Program-made: the position numbers and the translations under genes | Part shown: in pieces, positions 1,850 to 15,749 of the stretch | Position numbering within the stretch: the first letter of the stretch is position 1 | How the letters are laid out: each line of letters opens with the position of its first letter | Source: Gracilaria vermiculophylla | Taxonomy: Eukaryota; Rhodophyta; Florideophyceae; Gracilariales; Gracilariaceae | NCBI GenBank assembly: GCA_019155205.2 | Contig: JAHNZQ020000308.1 | Location: 5,021,469 to 5,037,727, forward strand | Reading direction: 5' to 3' | DNA: 16,259 nucleotides | Notes under the pieces: model-generated | Seen by the model: only the letters and a program-made list of their open reading frames with translations | Databases searched by the model: none | What the model was told of the DNA's origin: nothing

Positions 1850-2850
1850 TCACCATATATGGCCCGTACCTTCTTGCGGTCAGCTTCTGTGTTACCTGAG
1901 ACCTCGAATACAAATCCGAAAACAAAGATTTGTTCAACCCCACTTTCGATCCATCTTGATAACTTGGAGCTTGATAACGTTGAGAGGATATTGCACTTTG
2001 TCCAGCCTTAGACACTTTGTACTAGAACTTAGCATCTTCCAAAGAATTTTTCAATCTCGTTTTAAACCGTTCAACGCTTTCAATCGGCATCTCTGCTCCT
2101 GAAATCATAAAAAGAGGCGTCCTTGGATTATATCCCATGTCCACTTCGAGTGGCGACATTCCCAAGTCTTCAGTCACAGAAGAGTTATATGCAAACTCTG
2201 CAGCAAGTAGCAATTCATCCCAATCATTCTGATGGTACGAGCAATAGCACCGTAAATAGTGTTCAACTATTCGGTTCATAATCTCCTATGCAACATCTGT
2301 CTGGGGATGACGATCTGTGGACATCTTCAAGTTTGCTCCACATAGCTTCATCACATTTTCCCAGAACTTTGAAGTGAGCTTAGGATCTCTGTCCGAAACA
2401 ATGTTATCTGTCAAGCCACGGAGTTTAAATATTTTTTTGAAGAATGAAGAAGCCACATCTACTGCCGTGTCATTCACATTACAAGGAATGATATGAACTC
2501 TTCTTGTAAGACGATCAACCCAAGTTGTGACTGCATCTTTTCCATTCTTAGTCCTTGAAAGGTGTACAATAAAGTCAGTAGCTAGAGATCCCCATCTTCT
2601 TTCAGGCATCTCTAATGACTCTGGAACTGTCATTTTCTTTTGATTCGAATCTTTTGCTTGCTGACGTCGAAGGAATCCTTGCACATAATTTCGAACATCA
2701 CGTTTCTCATGTCTCTAATGATAGTTCGAAAGCCTCGATAAAGTCTTCGCAAAATCAAAATGTCCACTTATTTTCGAATTATGCGCTAGCTGCAGAGTAT
2801 CCGAAACACTTTTCCTTGGAACACACAGTTTCTTACCATACATCAGTGGT
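1850..2850 (-). other. Pol: integrase (zinc-binding part, DD35E core, C-terminal part)
   Basis: Integrase joins the cDNA to the host chromosome. The His pair of the zinc-binding part is present (LAHNSKISGHF near 2783), but the Cys pair expected near 2670 is gone and reads as VQGFLRRQ. The catalytic core has Asp at 2576 (SLATDFI), Asp at 2393 (IVSDRDP) and Glu at 2285 (EIMNR). The last two are 35 residues apart, the classic DD35E spacing. The stop at 2286 sits directly before the catalytic Glu. The C-terminal part (KLTARRYGPYMV, then GKNALRLDLPSHL across a stop at 1845) is typical of gypsy integrases. Confidence 0.88.
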
Positions 2851-3059
2851 TGTCCTTCTCGCCTAAACATTTGAATTATCTTTTCAAGCTGTAACTTCTT
2901 ATTCTCATCAGAAGGCCAGTTTCCATCTAAGGCTCTAGCAATAAGCCCAAAGAACTGATCATCATCATAACTGCTAGGAATATCATCAAGATCAAAAGAT
3001 AACACTTCCACATCGTTTACTGAAGGGTTATCCATATCCTTAGAGTTGGTCTCATGAAG

Positions 3060-3470
3060 AGCTCTTGACAAAGCATCACCAAGTACATGAATCTTTCCTT
3101 GCTTCAATGTAATTGGAAATATGCAAAAATTACCAAGCGTTTCAATGTAACGTTCCTCTTTTCGACTCAACTTAGGCTTGGTGAATAAATGCTTCAGGAC
3201 TCGATTGTCAGTTATAATCTCAAATGATTAACTTTCCAAATAAAATCTGAACCTCTGAAGAAAAGATATCAAACCAAGAATCTCCCTATCATTTGCGGAA
3301 TAATCTCTCTCAGTAGGAGACAGCTTTTCAGAATAGAAGGCAATAACACAATCCTTTCCATTCTCATCTAATTGTGTTAAAGTTCCTCCAACCGCATATT
3401 GCGAGGCATCAACGTGACCTCGAAAACTCTTGTTCCAGTCTGGGGCAACAAAAATAGGGGCTTGGATGAT
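3060..3470 (-). other. Pol: RNase H domain
   Basis: RNase H degrades the RNA strand of the RNA/DNA hybrid during reverse transcription. GHVDASQYAVGGTLTQ gives the first acid (about 3415), followed by FYSEKLSPTERDYSANDREIL, ITDNRVLKHLF with another acid, and HVLGDALSR with the last Asp at about 3077. All four expected acidic positions can be seen. One TAA at 3230-3228 interrupts the domain between FYLES and SFEIITDN. Confidence 0.85.
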
Positions 3471-3549
3471 GGATTCTTTCAACTTTTGGAATGCTCCATC
3501 ACACTTCTCATTCCATTTGCCAACAACGATATCTTTCTTTTTCAGATCC

Positions 3550-4320
3550 GCTAACGGGGCTGCAATTTCCGAGAACTTGGTAAAAAACCTGCGAAAGAAT
3601 TGGAGTAGTTGGAGTAAGCCAATAAAACTTCTAATGTCTGTAACAGTTTTCGGCTTCGGTCATGTTCGCAAAATCTCGACTTTTTATGGGTTGACGCGAA
3701 GACCATATTTGCCGACTGTAAAGCCCAAAAACTCTATTTCTGTTTTCAGAAAATCAATTTTCTTCGGAGAAACATAAAGCTCATGTTTTTTTCAGGCGAG
3801 TTAGTACGATTTCCAAATGCTTGAGATGGCTTTCTTCATCTTTGCTGAATATTAGAAGATCATCCATGTACACAACCATAAATACATCAATACAATTATA
3901 GAAGATACGGTTCAGCAACGCCTAGAAAGTAGCTGGGGCATTACATTAACCCATCGGCATAACAGTATACTCAAACTGTTTGTACTTCGTATTGAACGCG
4001 GTCTTTCCAGCATCCTTGGGCTTCACCCGTATCTGATGGAAACCAGTTTTCAAGTCCAACTTTGAGAAGACTCTTGCGTCACCAAGCCTATCAAACATCT
4101 CATCTGATCTAGGCAATGACGCATTGTTCCTTTTTGTGGTTCGATTAAGAGCTCGCTAATCGAGCACTCCTCTCATTCTGTCTTTCTCTTGGCCGAAGAA
4201 TAACAGCGATCCATACGGTGAATTACTGGGCCTAATCTTCTTTTTTCTCAGCAAATCTTCCATATATTCCTTTGCAGCTTTCAACTCCGCGGGGGACAAC
4301 TGAAATAATGGACGATGAGG
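3550..4320 (-). other. Pol: reverse transcriptase domain
   Basis: RT of the Ty3/gypsy type. Landmarks in order are LSPAEL with IRPSNSPYGS, then FSKLDLKTGFHQIRV with the first catalytic Asp near 4058, KTAFNTKY, CNAPATF, and VYMDDLLIFS with the YMDD box at 3870-3859. The thumb and connection region (FLGFTVGKYGL, then TVTDIRSFIGLL) follows in a second frame. The catalytic Asps are all kept, but in-frame stops occur before and after CNAPATF and in the connection, and the frameshift lies near 3785, so no working enzyme could be made. Confidence 0.9.
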
Positions 4321-4659
4321 TGGCTTAGATTATTTCTGAACCTCAATCACATGATCCACACTTCATTTTGGTGGTCGTCCAGCAGGGAGGTTCCCTTTGA
4401 AGACATTTTTAAAAAGACACAACAGCTTTTCCAAATTAACATGCATTTGACCTTCGGCTGCTGAGTGTTTAGTCAATTTCAACTCATTTACATCAACGAG
4501 TTGATATACATTGAAATCTCTCCCATTATTCTTCCTCCTAATCATGTTCCGGAACTTCCTAACTCCACTGCTAGTGAATCTTACTTCCTCGCTCGAATTA
4601 TCCTCAGTCATTGGAACCACGTCTTTGCCAACCTCAACAACCCGTTCTTGATAATCTAT

Positions 4660-5190
4660 ATCAGGATTGTTGTCAACATGCCATGGAATTCCAAGAAGCA
4701 CATCATATCTACAATCTGCGATAACCCAATTGGATTTCTACAGATGGGAACCAATCTTCAATTTTGCTTCTTGGATGACTTCGGACGCTTCTTCCTTTCA
4801 CTTCTTGCTCGAATGATTGATAGTAACATTGAATCTCTTAAATCGAAACTTTTCCTTGTTTCGAGCTGCAAAGTCCCTTGATACTACGTTTGTATTACAT
4901 CCGTCATCTTTGAGGATGGACACTTTTACATCATTCAATGTCTCATTGACTGTGAGTATGATCATTTTTTCAAGTGGAATTGAATCTTCATTGCCGTGGA
5001 TATTGTATTCACGATACGTAACGATAGTATTGGACTCCAAACTAGTCCTCGAGACTCTTATCGCATGATTTCTTTGACTCTTGTCCATTTCAGAGCTATC
5101 ACCAGTGTGAATCTCTTCTTCCAACACTGGAATATGTACACTTTGTCTTAGTTGCCTAACCCTTGCAACAAGACGCTTAAAGTCACTCAT
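4660..5190 (-). other. Pol: retroviral-type aspartic protease domain
   Basis: A protease in this position would cut the polyprotein into its parts. The stretch VSILKDDGCNTNVVS at about 4920-4875 matches the active-site loop (usually L-x-D-S/T-G-A), but it has DDG where DSG or DTG is usual. The second half continues in the same frame past stops at 4798 and near 4748, and ends in ADCRYDVLLGIPWH, the well-known end of gypsy proteases and their relatives. Whether DDG is a family trait or a mutation cannot be told from one copy. Confidence 0.75.
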
Positions 5191-5303
5191 ACTTAGTCCA
5201 ACCGGAGCGTTCTTTCTTTTCGGCGGATCTCTTAGTTTTCCGAGTCACTGTCATTAACTTGAGCATTATTCGATGTAATCTTATTCTTACGGTCATTATG
5301 TTT

Positions 5304-6053
5304 TCATGGCCTACAGCCTACTTTATGACATGTGAAGCAGCGGTTCTCTCTGTACAACTTCTCTTTCTTCGGATCATATCGACTATTCCTGCTTTGACTC
5401 TGATCATTGTTATACCTTCTCTCCACGTTACCTATCTTCATTGGAACGGGAGCCTGACTTGGAACATAACTCGACTGTTCACCAAACTTTGAGAACAAGC
5501 CAGATCCACCTAAAGCGCTGTCAACATTTGGAGCAATTCGTGCGGCTTCTTCGACGTTCGTAAAATTACCTTTAAGGACTTCTAGCCTAACTTGCGGCTT
5601 CAATCCAGAGACAAACTTATCTATCATTTCATCCATTGAAATCCCTGGGATGCTCAGAGCCACATTTCTAAACTCTGAAAGATAAGCTGCAACAGAATAC
5701 TTCTGAAGCAAAGACCTTAACTTGTCTCTTGCATGTCGAACACTATCAGCGGGAATGAACTCAGATCTTATCAGATTCTTGAACTCTTGAAAGAAATCCG
5801 GGACTGCATTAGCGGCAACCTTCATGAACCACCAACTTCCAGCTGTGCCCGTAAACAAGGTTGTAGCATACATAATCTTAGCTTTATCATTTAACACCAA
5901 CTCTGTGTTTTGCATTTGAACAAGTGCTACGTATTGTTCGAGCTGGTACAACCAAGTTTCCACGATGAGTCTATCCCGAGTGCCCTTTAACTGCTCCGGC
6001 TTATTTGGCTTTAAAAACGACATCTTAAACCAACTCTTTTTCTTCTCTTGCAA
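5304..6053 (-). CDS. gag: Gypsy Gag (capsid and zinc knuckle)
   Basis: Gag forms the particle that packages the element's RNA. The 249-codon frame has a Retrotrans_gag-type capsid: WLYQLEQYVAL, then AGSWWFMKVAANAVPDFF, FKNLIRSEF, LRSLLQKYSVAAYLSEFRNV and MIDKFVSGLKPQVRLEVL, at residues 30-170. A Gln/Ser/Asn/Arg-rich linker leads to the start of a CCHC zinc knuckle (CFTCHKVG, residues about 238-246). The knuckle breaks off at a TGA at 5306-5304 before its His and last Cys, so the end of Gag is damaged or shifted in frame. A second Met eleven residues in (MSFLKPNKPEQLKG) looks more like the usual start of such proteins. Protease follows about 110 bp downstream in another frame. Confidence 0.85.
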   Translation of the reverse strand: MQEKKKSWFKMSFLKPNKPEQLKGTRDRLIVETWLYQLEQYVALVQMQNTELVLNDKAKIMYATTLFTGTAGSWWFMKVAANAVPDFFQEFKNLIRSEFIPADSVRHARDKLRSLLQKYSVAAYLSEFRNVALSIPGISMDEMIDKFVSGLKPQVRLEVLKGNFTNVEEAARIAPNVDSALGGSGLFSKFGEQSSYVPSQAPVPMKIGNVERRYNNDQSQSRNSRYDPKKEKLYRENRCFTCHKVGCRP

Positions 6054-7006: not shown

Positions 7007-7050
7007 ATATCCCTAGAGCCAAGATTTATTGATCACTATACTGCACATAA
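7007..7050 (+). repeat. Left terminal inverted repeat
   Basis: The outer block ATATCCCTAGAGCC (7007-7020) is followed by 8 spacer bases and the inner block, which starts TTGATCACTATACTG (7029-7050). It pairs with the right end in inverted orientation: 13/14 in the outer block and 19/22 in the inner. Confidence 0.85.
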
Positions 7051-7333
7051 CATGTTTCCGTGAACTAGCTTTTCTTGTCTACCTCTACGGCTACACAAAG
7101 TAGTTGAACGTATTCTTCACGTTTTTCTTGAGGAACGTGCCACTTTTCACGCTTGACAGATAGAAAATGGCTGGATGGCAACGTCTCAAACTTTGGCAAC
7201 CATGAACGGCTCAGGACATCCAAAAAAGCGGCTATCGATCAGTATACTGATCATTAGAATGCGCTTTCTGCCCGAGCCAACTACCCCATACCGGCACCCA
7301 AGACCCCACTTTCTACACCAAACGCCGCCTCCG
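7051..7333. other. Left non-coding end of the DNA transposon
   Basis: About 280 bp between the left inverted repeat and the transposase stop. It holds the left palindrome and would give the 3' untranslated region and polyadenylation signal. No gene is supported; short frames on both strands here are chance. Confidence 0.6.
7237..7252. repeat. Left subterminal palindrome
   Basis: GATCAGTATACTGATC is a perfect 16-bp palindrome about 230 bp inside the left end, in the 3' untranslated part of the transposase gene. The same 16 bases occur near the right end, and the inner block of the terminal repeats differs from half of it by one base. Confidence 0.8.
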
Positions 7334-7559
7334 CTACCCTCCTTCCATGTTACTGCTCCCCTCTCGCGGTCTCCGTCGTGATTTACACGGACACTCACTT
7401 GCAAGCAAGATTCTCGTGGATCTTCTTCGGGTCACTAAGTCGTTAGATGCTGTTGAAGAGTTATCATCCGCCTCAATTTTCACATCGTTGCTATTGACAG
7501 CACTCTGTACGGCGTCCAATCCGACGCTGCTTCTATGCGACACTGCCTCATGTGTATTT

Positions 7560-7720
7560 CGGGGCTTGAGCACCCTCGGAGAATGCCACACATGCCAGCA
7601 GCTTTTACGCAGCCCGGGGTAGACTCTCATACATAGAGGTATCCAACATAAAATGCATGAGTATGTCGACCGATGACCGCGGTACCGCCCAGGATGTTGT
7701 CTACAATGCGTGCAGTACTG
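7560..7720 (-). other. Transposase: C-terminal Cys-rich zinc module
   Basis: The pattern is C-x2-C-x15-C-x2-C-x4-C-x10-C-x4-H, beginning QYCTHC and including STYSCILCWIPLC and ending CWHVWH. PiggyBac transposases carry a C-terminal cysteine-rich domain with the same T-x-Y-x-C-x2-C-x2-P-L-C core, which binds the terminal repeats. Its presence after the third catalytic motif is strong support for a piggyBac relationship. A basic tail (TRRRSTRIL, KSRRRPREG) follows to the stop at 7334. Confidence 0.78.
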
Positions 7721-8035
7721 CACAGCACCCTGCTCTGGACTGTGTTTGGGAACAGAAATCCGTAGGGCCACCCCTTCTGTGGAATTGAAAAAAGCCAATC
7801 GCTTCCTCTTCCGTCCATGAGCAAGAGCTATGAGCCTTTTAACCTCGTACCTATCACCCAGCATCCCTTCAACAGCTGCACTCTCTTCTTCAGAGGCAAG
7901 GAGTGTGGCGGCATTGCTCAAAAGTTCCTGTGAAACGTCAAACGTGAAATCAGCTGTTCCTTGAACTTTGTTTAACCGGTTGCGATAGGCCTCCAAAGAA
8001 TGAAATGTTTGTGAAAACTCCAGCAGGTCTTGTCT

Positions 8036-8230
8036 TTAAAACATTCGCCATTCGAAAAATGCGTTGATGGCTATCGTTTTGATGGTTTGTGAAGCAATCT
8101 TTTGCTCCCATTTAAAATGAGATGCTGAGCTTCTCAAGATTGCTCTCTGTTGCGTAGCGCCTTCGACTCCATTTTTGGTTTTGGAGTAAAACGTTTGGGC
8201 TACGTGTTTGAAAAGCTTCAGGGGTGGAAA
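8036..8230 (-). other. Transposase: third catalytic motif and following helix
   Basis: TKNGVEGATQQRAILRSS at about 8179-8126 corresponds to the piggyBac G-G-V-D motif holding the third catalytic Asp. Here the position is Glu, codon GAA at 8164-8162. FKWEQKIASQTIKTIAINAF then matches the piggyBac pattern of aromatic residues, a long helix and N-A. It lies about 505 codons after the second Asp, against about 100 in piggyBac, and the difference is filled by the nuclease. Confidence 0.7.
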
Positions 8231-8439
8231 AAATCCCTCTTTCCGCACATGGTCGTCAATGGTATACCAAAACTTGTGCCTTGTCAGAAACGTTCGCTGG
8301 CATTCCGCAGATACAAACGACGAAATGGTGAGAGTGTCCTCATGAGCCCACTTTTCAATTAGAATGGCGATATCCATTAAGACATCCTCGCACGTCCGCA
8401 GCACCATCTCAGAGCATCTATAGACGACAAGGTACAGAA

Positions 8440-9050
8440 TTCCCGTCTCAGCGGCGGAAATATAAATGCCAACACGAAGACCAAGTACGAACACCTATTG
8501 CATGATTTGGACCATGTGCCCTTGCGGGCTGTACTTGTGGAATATATCATCCCCTGCCTCACAAAGCACCACGTATGGATATGAAAGCAATATTGCTTCT
8601 CCTCCGCTTGAATCGGCCCCCCTGGTCTTGATCTCCACGCATGCAAGGATGATGTAGTTGCCTTGACCATCTTGAATTGCTACCTCACCCACGCTTTCGG
8701 AGTCATAGATAGATGTATCGAGCACTGCTATCCCATCAGGTGAGCAGGCAAGGAAACGGCACTCATTAACAGCCAACATTCCCACCTCAAACACGCCTGT
8801 TACAAACTGCTTCGCTCGAAGTGCACTTTAAACGGCGCATTCGTTCGCTCTTCCTCGCATCATCGCCTCCGTAGAGGTCTTTGTACTAAATCGTCCCATG
8901 TAGAACCTCTCAAACCACTGTGGGATTGTCGTTTCCTTTGTACCACTGCTTGCGGGAAGTCGCAGTATGGATCTGAAGCATGGACTGCTCATCAGAACGA
9001 GACCGGCATTAGTCCCGGTCACGCAAAATTGCCGCAATACGAACCAATCA
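8440..9050 (-). other. Transposase: inserted YqaJ/lambda-exonuclease-like nuclease
   Basis: This is a PD-(D/E)XK nuclease of the YqaJ type, related to phage lambda exonuclease. Motifs in order are RQFCVTGTNAG at about 9034 (family pattern R-x-x-x-T/S-G-T/S), MMRGRANE with Glu at 8842-8840 (family M-x-x-G-x-x-x-E), ACSPDGIAVLD with Asp near 8735 (S-P-D-G), VEIKTR near 8638-8621 (E-x-K), and HMVQIMQ followed after the TAG at 8495 by MFVLGL (the Q-x-Q-x-x helix). All expected catalytic residues are present. Stops at 8828 and 8495 interrupt it in phase. Such nucleases trim or cut DNA ends using metal ions. Its role in a transposase is unknown. Confidence 0.82.
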
Positions 9051-9625
9051 GGACACCTCTGCGATACTGTTAGCACCTCACATCTCTCGCGAAGAAACAC
9101 CGACACCATATCCTGAACGTCTTGCATATCATTTCCCCGCCGAAATGTCTGGAACAAGGTAAACGTCGTCTTGTCTATGTTCTGTTTGGGAACCGCAATC
9201 CACGTATTAAGAGCATCTTGAATCCCAGCTGGCACAGTGTAAATAAATCGCAGCACCTTCGAAAACTTGTCTGTACCTCGTTCACGTACCGCGATAGCAT
9301 TCATGCAGCGTTGTTGAGAGCGGCCCTGGCCTGTACCAGCAATTTTTGTTGCGAAGAATGCTTCTGGACCAAGAGTACGGTCATCGTCGATCACAAATTT
9401 GCGGCGATGATCCCAGTAAAACTGGTGTGGAGCAACAGCAGGATGTTCCCCATCACCCTTCCCATGCGTATTCCCCATCTCAGCTGTCCTGGGTTCGGAC
9501 TCGCCTTCCGCATCCCCAATATCAAGCGCTTCATCTTCCAAGTCATCGCGTACAGGGTCTAGAAAGAACAGCCCGACGAAGAGATGCACGCGGAGAAAAT
9601 ATTCCTGCATAACATACACAGAACG

Positions 9626-10102
9626 TTAACCGAAACCTGAGAGTATCTCCAAAAAATATTGCTTTCCGTAGCCTCTGTCTGCAGTTACTATGCAACCAGT
9701 GTTTACCTCCTCCCCCCTGCCATCAAATACAGTCGAAAGAAGCTTTTTCATAGACTCTGTCTGAGCTTCACCTCTACGACGAAAGCGTATGGCCAGGATG
9801 ATGCGAAAAAGGGCATCAGCTAAAACGTCCACCGAATATCTCTCCTTGTCAGCCATGCGTGCGCTCAACATTTTCACATGATTGTCGGACGCTCTTGTCC
9901 CGTACAGGTCGTCATCGAGGGTCGCAAGCAGATGTATCGGACAGAAAAAGGCCTTCCGAGTATCTCTGAAAGCAATGCTTTCAAATTCTGACAGCTGCCG
10001 CGTCTGGTCCCTCTGCGCATTCCAATGCATCTCTCCTTGCCTACATTGTCCAGTAGAGGGCGTATGCAAGAATGTTGTCCGCAATGAATTGAACACGATC
10101 AA
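9626..10102 (-). other. Transposase: first two catalytic acids of the DDE core
   Basis: This open piece holds PIHLLATLDDDLYGTRASDN with an Asp cluster at about 9916-9908, and CIVTADRGYGKQYFLEIL with Asp at 9679-9677. In piggyBac-type enzymes these correspond to the first Asp (before a G-R or T-R turn) and the second Asp (an A/T-D-x-x-F/Y motif). The spacing agrees, counting from the middle Asp of the cluster. The first 20 or so residues of this frame, up to about 10040, are out of phase; the true upstream sequence lies in the other frame. Confidence 0.75.
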
Positions 10103-10956
10103 GACAAGGTGCTGTACTCCCTGCTTGGCGAAGCACCTCGATGGTCTTCTCGAAACTAAAACCGGTTGTGTGAGATAAAATCATCACGGAGACGTAGCGA
10201 TACATTTCAGCAATATTCACACATTCCTGGTCCTTGTTTCGCAGTCGAATGTCTTCATTGACCCATTTTTGTTACTGGTCGATGAGGCCTTATAGGAGGA
10301 GCACCGTAATGGTGCAGAGATTTCAAGGCAGATTGCGTACGTCACACTGTAGTTTTAGGTGGGTTACGGCATTGCTACAGAACATCCGCGCTCTGTTTTG
10401 GATGACCTTTTCAGCAAAAGCGCTCTCCAAGACGACAGTCTCACATGCAGTCCTGTTCAATGTCCATCCTTCACTTGGGTCGTCGTGACGTGCGCCTGTC
10501 GTCTCTCCTCCGCGATCTCTTCCCCTAGATCTGCCCCTTGTGGCTCCATGCCCCATCCCTGATGAATCTCTTGCTCTCCCTCTCCCTCATGATTGCCTTG
10601 CTCCCCAGTTACGACTAGCCGCACTCTCCGACCCGCCTTGTATGGCTTGGCTTGTGGCAGGGACATGCAAGGGACTGATTTGTGGCGCTAGAAAACCGAT
10701 GGGTTGCGTGGAGGCCTGCAGCGGCGTGGGTTGGGTCGTGGTGTTCTGCTCACCGATCACGACGGTAGTCATGTTAAAGGCGTTTGTTGGGCAAGATTCT
10801 GCTTCACCTACCCCAGCGGTTTCTTGTCGGATGTTGAATATTGAAAGCTTGGCTTGGTGGCAATAGGAAGATCAATCTAGAAGCAACGAGAGAACGGAAG
10901 CTTTTAGGGTTTTTGAGATCAACACCATGGCCTAGAAGGACGCCCCAATTGAGGGC

Positions 10957-10980
10957 TACTGATCAGTATACTGATCAGTA
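10957..10980. repeat. Right subterminal palindrome
   Basis: A perfect 24-bp palindrome whose core GATCAGTATACTGATC (10961-10976) is identical to the left copy. The next bases extend the pairing as AGGGC on one side and GCCCT on the other, with one unpaired G. It lies about 70 bp inside the right end and upstream of the transposase start, so it could serve both transposase binding and control of the gene. Confidence 0.8.
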
Positions 10981-11010
10981 GGCCCTTAAAGTGAAAATGC
11001 CTCTAAACTT

Positions 11011-11050
11011 TTATGTTCAATATAGTGATCATTGCGGGCACTAGGGATAT
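11011..11050 (-). repeat. Right terminal inverted repeat
   Basis: Read on the minus strand from 11050 it gives ATATCCCTAGTGCC, 4 spacer bases, then ATGATCACTATATTG and on to ACATAA. This matches the left end in two blocks, with a spacer 4 bp shorter. Confidence 0.85.
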
Positions 11051-14582: not shown

Positions 14583-15749
14583 ATGATAGCGGCGATGGTA
14601 GCAGCGGCGGAGGCAGGCCACGGCCGGGCGCCGAAACGCACGGCGGCGCGCTGTAGGCGGCGACAGCGCGCGCGGCGGGGGGGAGAGTGTGGTGGAGGGC
14701 AGTTTACGAGAGAAGCCGCATGCTATCGGCCACTCTCTGTCACGTGTGCTCACTTCAGCCGCCCCTTGCTGTTCTCTGCTTACCCAGTTCCACCAGCCTT
14801 GTTGACCCTCACCGCTCTCGCCGTCCATTTTCCCCGCCTTCGCGATGCACTCTCCCTCGCCGCTCGCCTCACAAAATGTTCACGTCAAGCGCCCCAAATC
14901 CAACAGCGGCGTCGTCTTGCGCTGCGCCAACCTCTTCAGCGCCGCCTCGCTGTCAAAAATGATGCTCACCCACACTCTTCGCCCTTGCTTTCCGACTTCT
15001 CGCGCATGCAGCGCAAGATGATCCGCTTGAGCGATTCTTTGCACCGCCGCAAACGCCTTGAGCGTCACAACTCTAGGCATCGCCTGTCCGCACAGCATCT
15101 TGTCTTTGACAGAAATGGGCACGCCTTCCCCGCCGCTGCGCACGCCTTCCCCGCCGCTGCGCACGCCACCCAGCCCAGCCCGTCCATTAACTTCTCGGGC
15201 GTGATGTCCAGTCCGGTGCTGTTCAGCCGCGAACGCATCCTCAAGTTAGAGCGAGAAAACATGGGGACGCATCTTGCTCAACTGCGCTTTGACGACATCG
15301 ACGACGATGCGGACGCGGACAAGCTTGCTATCTCTTCTATGAGAGAACCTACCACGAGGAGGGGTTCTTCAGGTCGTAGTCCGCAGAAACGACGATACGT
15401 TGCTCATGTTGCCTCGCCTCGCATCCATTTCGTTCCTGGCCTCTGGAAGGCGGCGCCGAATGATTCTGCAAAAGTGCGTCAGCTTCCCAGAGATTCTGGT
15501 TGCATGCCCACTCGTGCCTCTCCAAGACATCCCTCCTTTCCTATGGCACCCTCTAGCCCTGTGTTTTCCAAAGCCAGGTCTGCGAGCACTGCCAGCAGTG
15601 GCGGCAAGACTGTTGAGACACACCGCTTAGTCAACCGTGGCGAGGCTCCCACAGATATCGTGGATGCACCGCAAAATGTCATGTATCGGCGACCAATAGC
15701 TTTGCTTGACAGAGATGTGGAGAAGGAAAATAGAGAGCGCCATCGTTGA
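14583..15749 (+). CDS. Unrecognised Ser/Arg/Pro-rich protein, possible host gene
   Basis: The frame is open for 388 codons, the longest unbroken plus-strand frame here. The first 120 or so residues (Ala/Arg-rich, GC-rich DNA) look like an extension by chance. From about 15000 the protein looks real: RMQRKMIRLSDSLHRRKR, then SINFSGVMSSPVLFSRERIL, KLERENMGTHLAQLRFDDID, an acidic run (DDIDDDADADK), several S-P and T-P sites and a charged end (DRDVEKENRERHR). Many S/T-P sites and basic patches suggest a regulated nuclear protein, which is inference only. An alternative start is the ATG at 14845 (MHSPSPLASQNVHVKRPKSN) in the next frame, which would join this frame by one base at the A5 tract near 14957 or by splicing. 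I recognise no family. Start uncertain, end at 15749 fairly sure. Confidence 0.5.
   Translation: MIAAMVAAAEAGHGRAPKRTAARCRRRQRARRGGECGGGQFTREAACYRPLSVTCAHFSRPLLFSAYPVPPALLTLTALAVHFPRLRDALSLAARLTKCSRQAPQIQQRRRLALRQPLQRRLAVKNDAHPHSSPLLSDFSRMQRKMIRLSDSLHRRKRLERHNSRHRLSAQHLVFDRNGHAFPAAAHAFPAAAHATQPSPSINFSGVMSSPVLFSRERILKLERENMGTHLAQLRFDDIDDDADADKLAISSMREPTTRRGSSGRSPQKRRYVAHVASPRIHFVPGLWKAAPNDSAKVRQLPRDSGCMPTRASPRHPSFPMAPSSPVFSKARSASTASSGGKTVETHRLVNRGEAPTDIVDAPQNVMYRRPIALLDRDVEKENRERHR
15120..15161. repeat. 21-bp tandem duplication inside the right-hand gene
   Basis: CACGCCTTCCCCGCCGCTGCG occurs twice head to tail (15120-15140, 15141-15161), followed by the first six bases of a third copy. It keeps the frame and encodes HAFPAAA twice in the long frame. 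In the next frame it would encode RTPSPPL repeats. Confidence 0.9.

Follow-up and report, generated by a model that had tools for sequence, protein, structure and literature searches.

A YqaJ/lambda-exonuclease-type nuclease predicted between the second and third catalytic acids of a decayed, piggyBac-related transposase in Gracilaria vermiculophylla

The piggyBac transposase frees the 3' ends of its element, forms hairpins over four flanking bases, reopens them and joins the ends at TTAA, while its insertion domain contacts both hairpin and target DNA (PMC7351741, in the portion of that paper available to us). Nucleases accompany other elements: according to the retrieved text of PMC4482050, ISL2EU elements of the PHIS group mostly contain two open reading frames (ORFs), with a THAP/HTH transposase, a YqaJ nuclease on a separate ORF and AT duplications, and the function of such additional ORFs is there called unknown. 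In KolobokE, a lambda-exonuclease-like PD-(D/E)XK nuclease is found downstream of the transposase domain, and Kolobok elements are characterized by TTAA, 5'-RR ends and a C/DxxH signature between the second D and the last E (excerpts of PMC9587614). Here we describe a different arrangement in a 16,259-nucleotide stretch of the red alga Gracilaria vermiculophylla (assembly GCA_019155205.2, contig JAHNZQ020000308.1, positions 5,021,469 to 5,037,727), hereafter the window, whose minus strand carries a decayed DNA transposon with a nuclease domain inside its transposase. We consider it probable, at roughly 0.6, that this element is a dead eukaryotic cut-and-paste transposon that encoded a single protein of ~1,150 residues, comprising an Arg-rich N-terminus, a piggyBac-related DDD core of RNase-H type, a nuclease between the second and third Asp, and a zinc module.

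An initial sequence-only reading of this DNA had placed a YqaJ nuclease inside a piggyBac-like transposase. All motifs it quoted lie in a single minus-strand frame of 922 codons (window 7337-10102) with four in-frame stops and no frameshift, in the order TLDDDLYGTRA, TADRGYG, YqaJ-like region, NGVEGATQQR and Cys-rich module (Table 1). The distances between catalytic acids, given there as about 78 and 505 residues, were measured as 79 and 505, respectively. The span of 7334-10772 proved right for the gene from ATG to stop, but the N-terminal part of that gene lies in another frame and the whole element is wider.

The homology of the nuclease to YqaJ/lambda exonuclease is well supported. Profile-profile comparison (hhalign) with YqaJ proteins gave P = 6.9e-8 for a profile of 11 proteins (lambda plus 10 of 316 matching phage records) and P = 6e-8 after enlargement by 53 of the 55 loci L191-L245, and the maximum score among 60 column shuffles of the nuclease profile was 23.6 versus 59.9 observed. 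An exonuclease family, PHROG_149, was matched with an E value of 2.8e-6. PF09588 was matched below its cut-off in four reads (E 0.016-0.15), and not at all in the protein reads P0001 and P0007; since a PF09588 profile search of the genome returned nothing, such a search misses this nuclease domain. In an alignment with 34 viral rows (34 of 160 loci, used after one row with a stop, L216, had been dropped) the active-site residues, namely E, the D of SPDG, E-x-K and Q, are invariant; they are kept in P0002, P0003, P0007 and P0008, and the conserved YqaJ columns are kept in the window copy and in a second family described below. Structure comparison placed the predicted nuclease fold closest to lambda exonuclease, with lower-ranked matches (Cas4, MGME1, Dna2, RecE and others) that indicate only the PD-(D/E)XK fold. 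The element's nuclease therefore resembles the lambda exonuclease/YqaJ viral recombinases (PF09588; PDB 1AVQ, 3SLP and LHK-Exo 3SYY) in active-site columns and predicted fold, whereas the phage YqaJ enzymes retrieved are stand-alone genes and the element's nuclease is embedded in a transposase, with a Pfam score below cut-off. Viral contigs yielded no relatives, nor did one scan of prokaryote genomes. Profile, conserved columns, model and two families together bear out the placement proposed from the sequence, and support the prediction that a complete PD-(D/E)XK nuclease of YqaJ/lambda-exonuclease type sits between the second and third catalytic acids.

The arrangement of a nuclease within a transposase is real and has been conserved, occurring in at least two families of the genome searched (44.8 Mb on 27 contigs). 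At the DNA level, five further copies were found to be full-length and 89-91% identical, and several more to be partial; pairwise identities among the six full-length copies range from 0.890 to 0.913 in a star-like pattern. The sequence-only reading had proposed a search for intact copies in the same genome; all six full-length ones are decayed. Their frames break at mostly different places, and the copies therefore descend from one uninterrupted gene: L010 can be read in one frame over 965 codons with two stops, and L012 over 964 codons with three. A protein search with the window read revealed a second family, with ~45% protein identity and the same domain order. Its best match, L058, holds a 613-codon open frame running through both Asp motifs into the nuclease, followed by one stop and continuing to an N stretch, and L060 supplies the C-terminal half with SRTKGGVDGATQQRA. 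Runs of N break the family-2 copies within the nuclease (L058 from ~5155, L060 at ~2000-4091, and L059), so that no single copy of this family is readable through that domain. The GRANE of the window copy is replaced by GSANE in the remaining rows of family 1 and by GTANE in those of family 2, and the third acid, E in the window copy, is D in all six other rows read (P0001, P0002, P0006, P0009, L011 and L013). A third, worn family is present at C21 (32% identity), and when P0009 and P0008 served as queries (E up to 10), the matches listed belonged only to these families.

A relative with joined transposase halves lacking the nuclease was likewise absent among the matches listed for this genome, in which the best candidates were scored; several relatives are incomplete (e.g., the C1 copy, or L019 with its internal deletion) or broken by stretches of N, and are uninformative either way on absence of the nuclease. 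Nor did the relatives listed in this genome show nuclease and transposase always as separate genes, the pattern that would have spoken against the initial proposal. Between the two main families, nonsynonymous differences (pN) amount to 0.27-0.46 and synonymous ones (pS) to 0.73-0.89 per site over four regions, nuclease included, with synonymous sites saturated and one comparison resting on 44 codons. Since nonsynonymous differences are well below synonymous ones, the part between the first and second Asp (D1-D2) and the nuclease, which are the parts comparable, evolved under purifying selection.

The relation of the transposase core to piggyBac is distant. With the third-acid block, a search of the PDB at E up to 10 gave a single match, the piggyBac transposase 6X67, on its YNQTKGGVDTLDQ segment, which is weak (E 1.6 with P0009, 0.22 with a profile). 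DDE_Tnp_1_7 (PF13843) was matched by P0009 only, at 14.2 bits versus a cut-off of 22.4 (E 0.027), over the last 43 profile positions at the third-acid end. The C-terminal module shows a Cys pattern and matches zf-Tnp_2 below cut-off (E 0.0068-0.048, best in P0005), family-1 reads match DDE_Tnp_1 through their D1-D2 part, also below cut-off (E 0.003-0.07), and no match of any transposase part reached a curated Pfam cut-off. The element shares CCC termini with T. ni piggyBac (PDB 6X67/6X68; DDE_Tnp_1_7). Further likenesses are a GGVD-type third motif, a Cys-rich C-terminal module, a 4-bp palindromic duplication, and an Asp-Asp distance of 79 versus 78 residues (D268 and D346 in the part of PMC7351741 consulted). 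In contrast, piggyBac has TTAA where the element has ATAT, and its second and third Asp are ~100 residues apart, versus 505 with a whole YqaJ nuclease between them.

Several observations weigh against our reading of the element. Profiles built from D1-D2 and from the third-acid block failed to match those of the host's own piggyBacs (one set of these comparisons covered 6 of 16 planned, with 0 of 6 matching), and PDB searches with the D1-D2 profile and the whole of P0001 returned no transposase, both matching unrelated chains only. The nuclease residues are changed in P0001 (N and K) and P0006 (D for E), as expected of dead copies; the structural model was built with the 34 viral YqaJ rows, so that its lambda-exonuclease shape is partly built in, and folding without an alignment failed, with a predicted local distance difference test (pLDDT) score of 32.6. 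Lambda exonuclease acts as a trimeric ring, which may not form inside a transposase. Finally, the selection comparison leaves out the third-acid block and the zinc module. Because Pfam cut-offs were unreached, host piggyBac profiles unmatched and no PDB transposase returned for the D1-D2 profile or whole P0001, we call the element piggyBac-related by sequence, but not a member of piggyBac. The original label "piggyBac-like" is weakly supported by the third-acid block and the zinc module and agrees with the CCCTAG ends and the palindromic 4-bp duplication, but not with the profile searches or the target sequence. As for the host's ordinary piggyBacs, the piggyBac profile gave 118 listed matches in the genome; these fall into two kinds or more, include some open frames and presumably resemble oomycete piggyBacs. 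None of these 118 falls on the nuclease-bearing family, the nuclease profile gave no alignment with the host's own piggyBacs, and the 14 ordinary piggyBac stretches that were read lack an intervening nuclease wherever they cover both acids.

Imperfect inverted repeats of ~40 nt, starting with CCCTAG (CCCTAG...CTAGGG in the window copy), delimit the transposon, which has 26-nt palindromes close to either end. ATAT occurs on either flank in the six copies with both flanks readable; in the C8 copy (L015), one end of which is degraded, an ATAT-CCC match was looked for at that end and none was found, and the right end of L010 runs into N. Empty sites were recovered for two copies. L012 is inserted in a repeat, and 29 paralogues cross its junction (among the best 40 of 888 candidates scored); judged by net length against flank-ATAT-flank, 21 of them are equal, seven are one base off and one is two bases shorter. 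Six of the 29, picked because match length equalled query length, so that gaplessness is partly by choice, align directly without gaps and read ATAT once and ATGT five times. For L014, three further empty sites are gap-free at the junction (3/3; two ATAT, one AAAT), and their net length, shorter by 4-5 bases, reflects a gap far from it. These sites fit a 4-bp ATAT duplication as the simplest reading, or a 2-bp TA duplication with TCCC ends, which stays compatible because it predicts the same empty site. The duplication is ATAT, and not TTAA. A 2-bp AT duplication with symmetric ATCCC ends was rejected, since it predicts empty sites two bases shorter, a difference that net length shows for one of the 29 and direct reading for none of nine.

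The element's end sequence was matched at nine right ends in the genome, and this search did not point to numerous short derivatives. A single internally deleted derivative of 1,847 bases (L019/L020, C18:2043787-2045634) has kept both ends and ATAT flanks. Furthermore, the flanks of four of six copies tested (left for the window copy; right for L012, L014 and L019) match places within ~3 kb of each other (e.g., C17:2437653-2439924, C9:1971601-1973091 and C18:88822-89901). Because these flank matches fall so close together, the four copies appear to have inserted into members of a single dispersed repeat family.

The 4-bp palindrome, the CCC ends and the similar third motif suggest a reaction of the piggyBac type, in which the DDD core would excise and integrate the element with a 4-nt offset at the palindrome ATAT. 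In piggyBac, the second and third Asp flank the insertion domain, in keeping with the residue numbers in PMC7351741. As it sits between the same two acids, the nuclease would be held near the cleaved ends, the flank or the target. Tentatively, we prefer an action at the donor site, where after excision the nuclease could resect the 5'-phosphorylated ends in 5'-to-3' direction. Such resection would block seamless rejoining and push donor repair toward copying from the sister chromatid, by which the element would be regained at the donor site. Whether by end processing or by donor resection with copy-back, a two-active-site transposase in which the lambda-exonuclease-type site were obligate, acting at a 4-bp palindrome other than TTAA, would represent a distinct pathway of a piggyBac-derived lineage; this more far-reaching proposal we hold to be doubtful.

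Instead of acting at the donor site, the nuclease could perform transposition chemistry itself, opening or trimming the hairpin or flank overhang at the transposon end, a task that falls solely to the DDD site in piggyBac. Its position, where the piggyBac insertion domain touches the hairpin loop, and the retained active-site residues in the window copy and family 2 would suit this role, but piggyBac opens its own hairpins and needs no extra nuclease (PMC7351741, as far as the consulted text goes), and we consider it unlikely. Also improbable is that the domain now serves chiefly a structural or DNA-binding purpose, as an enlarged insertion domain that holds ends or target and whose catalysis is dispensable. 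The insertion position, the loss of catalytic residues in two of six rows and the stronger divergence of the nuclease between families (pN 0.44-0.45, compared with 0.27-0.30 for D1-D2) are consistent with it; against this, conserved YqaJ columns persist in the window copy and family 2, and pN is well under pS.

Much less probable is that the element belongs to a known nuclease-coupled group and looks odd from decay, even though ISL2EU (PMC4482050) and KolobokE (PMC9587614) each combine a DDE transposase and a nuclease of lambda-exonuclease type, as excerpts of both papers describe. Like ISL2EU, our element unites a DDE transposase and a YqaJ nuclease, yet it does so in a single frame and with one ATAT at empty sites, compared with mostly two ORFs and AT duplications; the sequence-only reading had put the ISL2EU nuclease on a separate protein, and the consulted text of PMC4482050 agrees. 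Like the Kolobok lineages (KolobokE, KolobokD and KolobokP), it couples a DDE transposase to a nuclease, but by published description these have TTAA, 5'-RR termini and, in KolobokE, a downstream nuclease, whereas the element has ATAT, 5'-CC termini and an embedded one, and no C/DxxH motif between the second and third acid is common to both of its families. Measured against these descriptions, membership in either group is rejected from the duplication, the termini and the layout of the gene. Published co-mentions of YqaJ and piggyBac include a filter list and one mention that comes with the title of a cited work, and among the matches listed for YqaJ and transposon, the papers that treat DNA transposons of eukaryotes deal with elements of ISL2EU type. 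A search that most subscription papers and Repbase entries lie outside gave no report placing a YqaJ nuclease within a transposase fold; the embedded nuclease is new relative to the nuclease-coupled transposons found there. Lastly, although every copy read is decayed or gapped, the joining of two unrelated broken elements, by chance or in assembly, is ruled out for practical purposes, since six full-length copies stand at six places, the ~45%-identity family repeats the order, and column shuffles fall far short of the observed score.

Two further features lie in the window. Decayed pieces of a Ty3-type retroelement occupy window 2289-6053 on the minus strand (gag 5307-6053, RNase H 3231-3482, integrase zinc 2718-3170 and integrase core 2289-2684, both integrase matches being below cut-off), and a 388-codon open frame in GC-rich DNA lies at 14583-15746 on the plus strand and matches no Pfam family with an E value of 0.01 or less.

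Table 1. Features of the decayed transposon and its gene, in window coordinates
Feature	Position	Strand	Remarks
Decayed DNA transposon, whole	7011-11046	minus	4036 bp between ATAT duplications; bounds from five other full-length copies and reading of ends
Target-site duplication ATAT, first side	7007-7010		read at flank; empty sites of two other copies
Target-site duplication ATAT, second side	11047-11050		read at flank; empty sites of two other copies
Terminal inverted repeat behind gene	7011-7050		imperfect; repeat search
Terminal inverted repeat before gene	11011-11046		imperfect; repeat search
Subterminal palindrome	7232-7257		imperfect; candidate transposase binding site
Subterminal 26-nt palindrome CTACTGATCAGTATACTGATCAGTAG	10956-10981		candidate binding site
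Decayed transposase-nuclease gene	7334-10772	minus	ATG to stop, ~1146 codons
N-terminal part, Arg-rich stretch first	10083-10772	minus	ATG at 10772; frame differs from remainder in window copy
First catalytic Asp (TLDDDLYGTRA)	9914-9916	minus	residue 63
Second catalytic Asp (TADRGYG)	9677-9679	minus	residue 142
YqaJ/lambda-exonuclease-like nuclease domain	8339-9076	minus	model residues 9-254
YqaJ Glu of R-A-N-E	8840-8842	minus	
YqaJ Asp of SPDG	8735-8737	minus	
YqaJ Glu-x-Lys (EIK)	8627-8635	minus	
YqaJ conserved Gln	8507-8509	minus	
Third-acid block NGVEGATQQR	8042-8185	minus	third acid, residue 647, at 8162-8164
C-terminal Cys/His module CxxC..CxxC..C..CWxxWH	7583-7714	minus	zf-Tnp_2-like, below cut-off

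Lambda-exonuclease-type nucleases accompany at least two other eukaryotic groups of DDE transposons, as a second ORF in ISL2EU and downstream in KolobokE. Embedding, as in the Gracilaria element, fixes both the position and the stoichiometry of the nuclease relative to the transposase, and places it between those acids that in piggyBac hold the domain contacting hairpin and target. The role of transposon nucleases would thereby become directly testable with one protein and its point mutants, and the RNase-H-type core would be shown to accommodate an entire additional enzyme between the second acid and the third.

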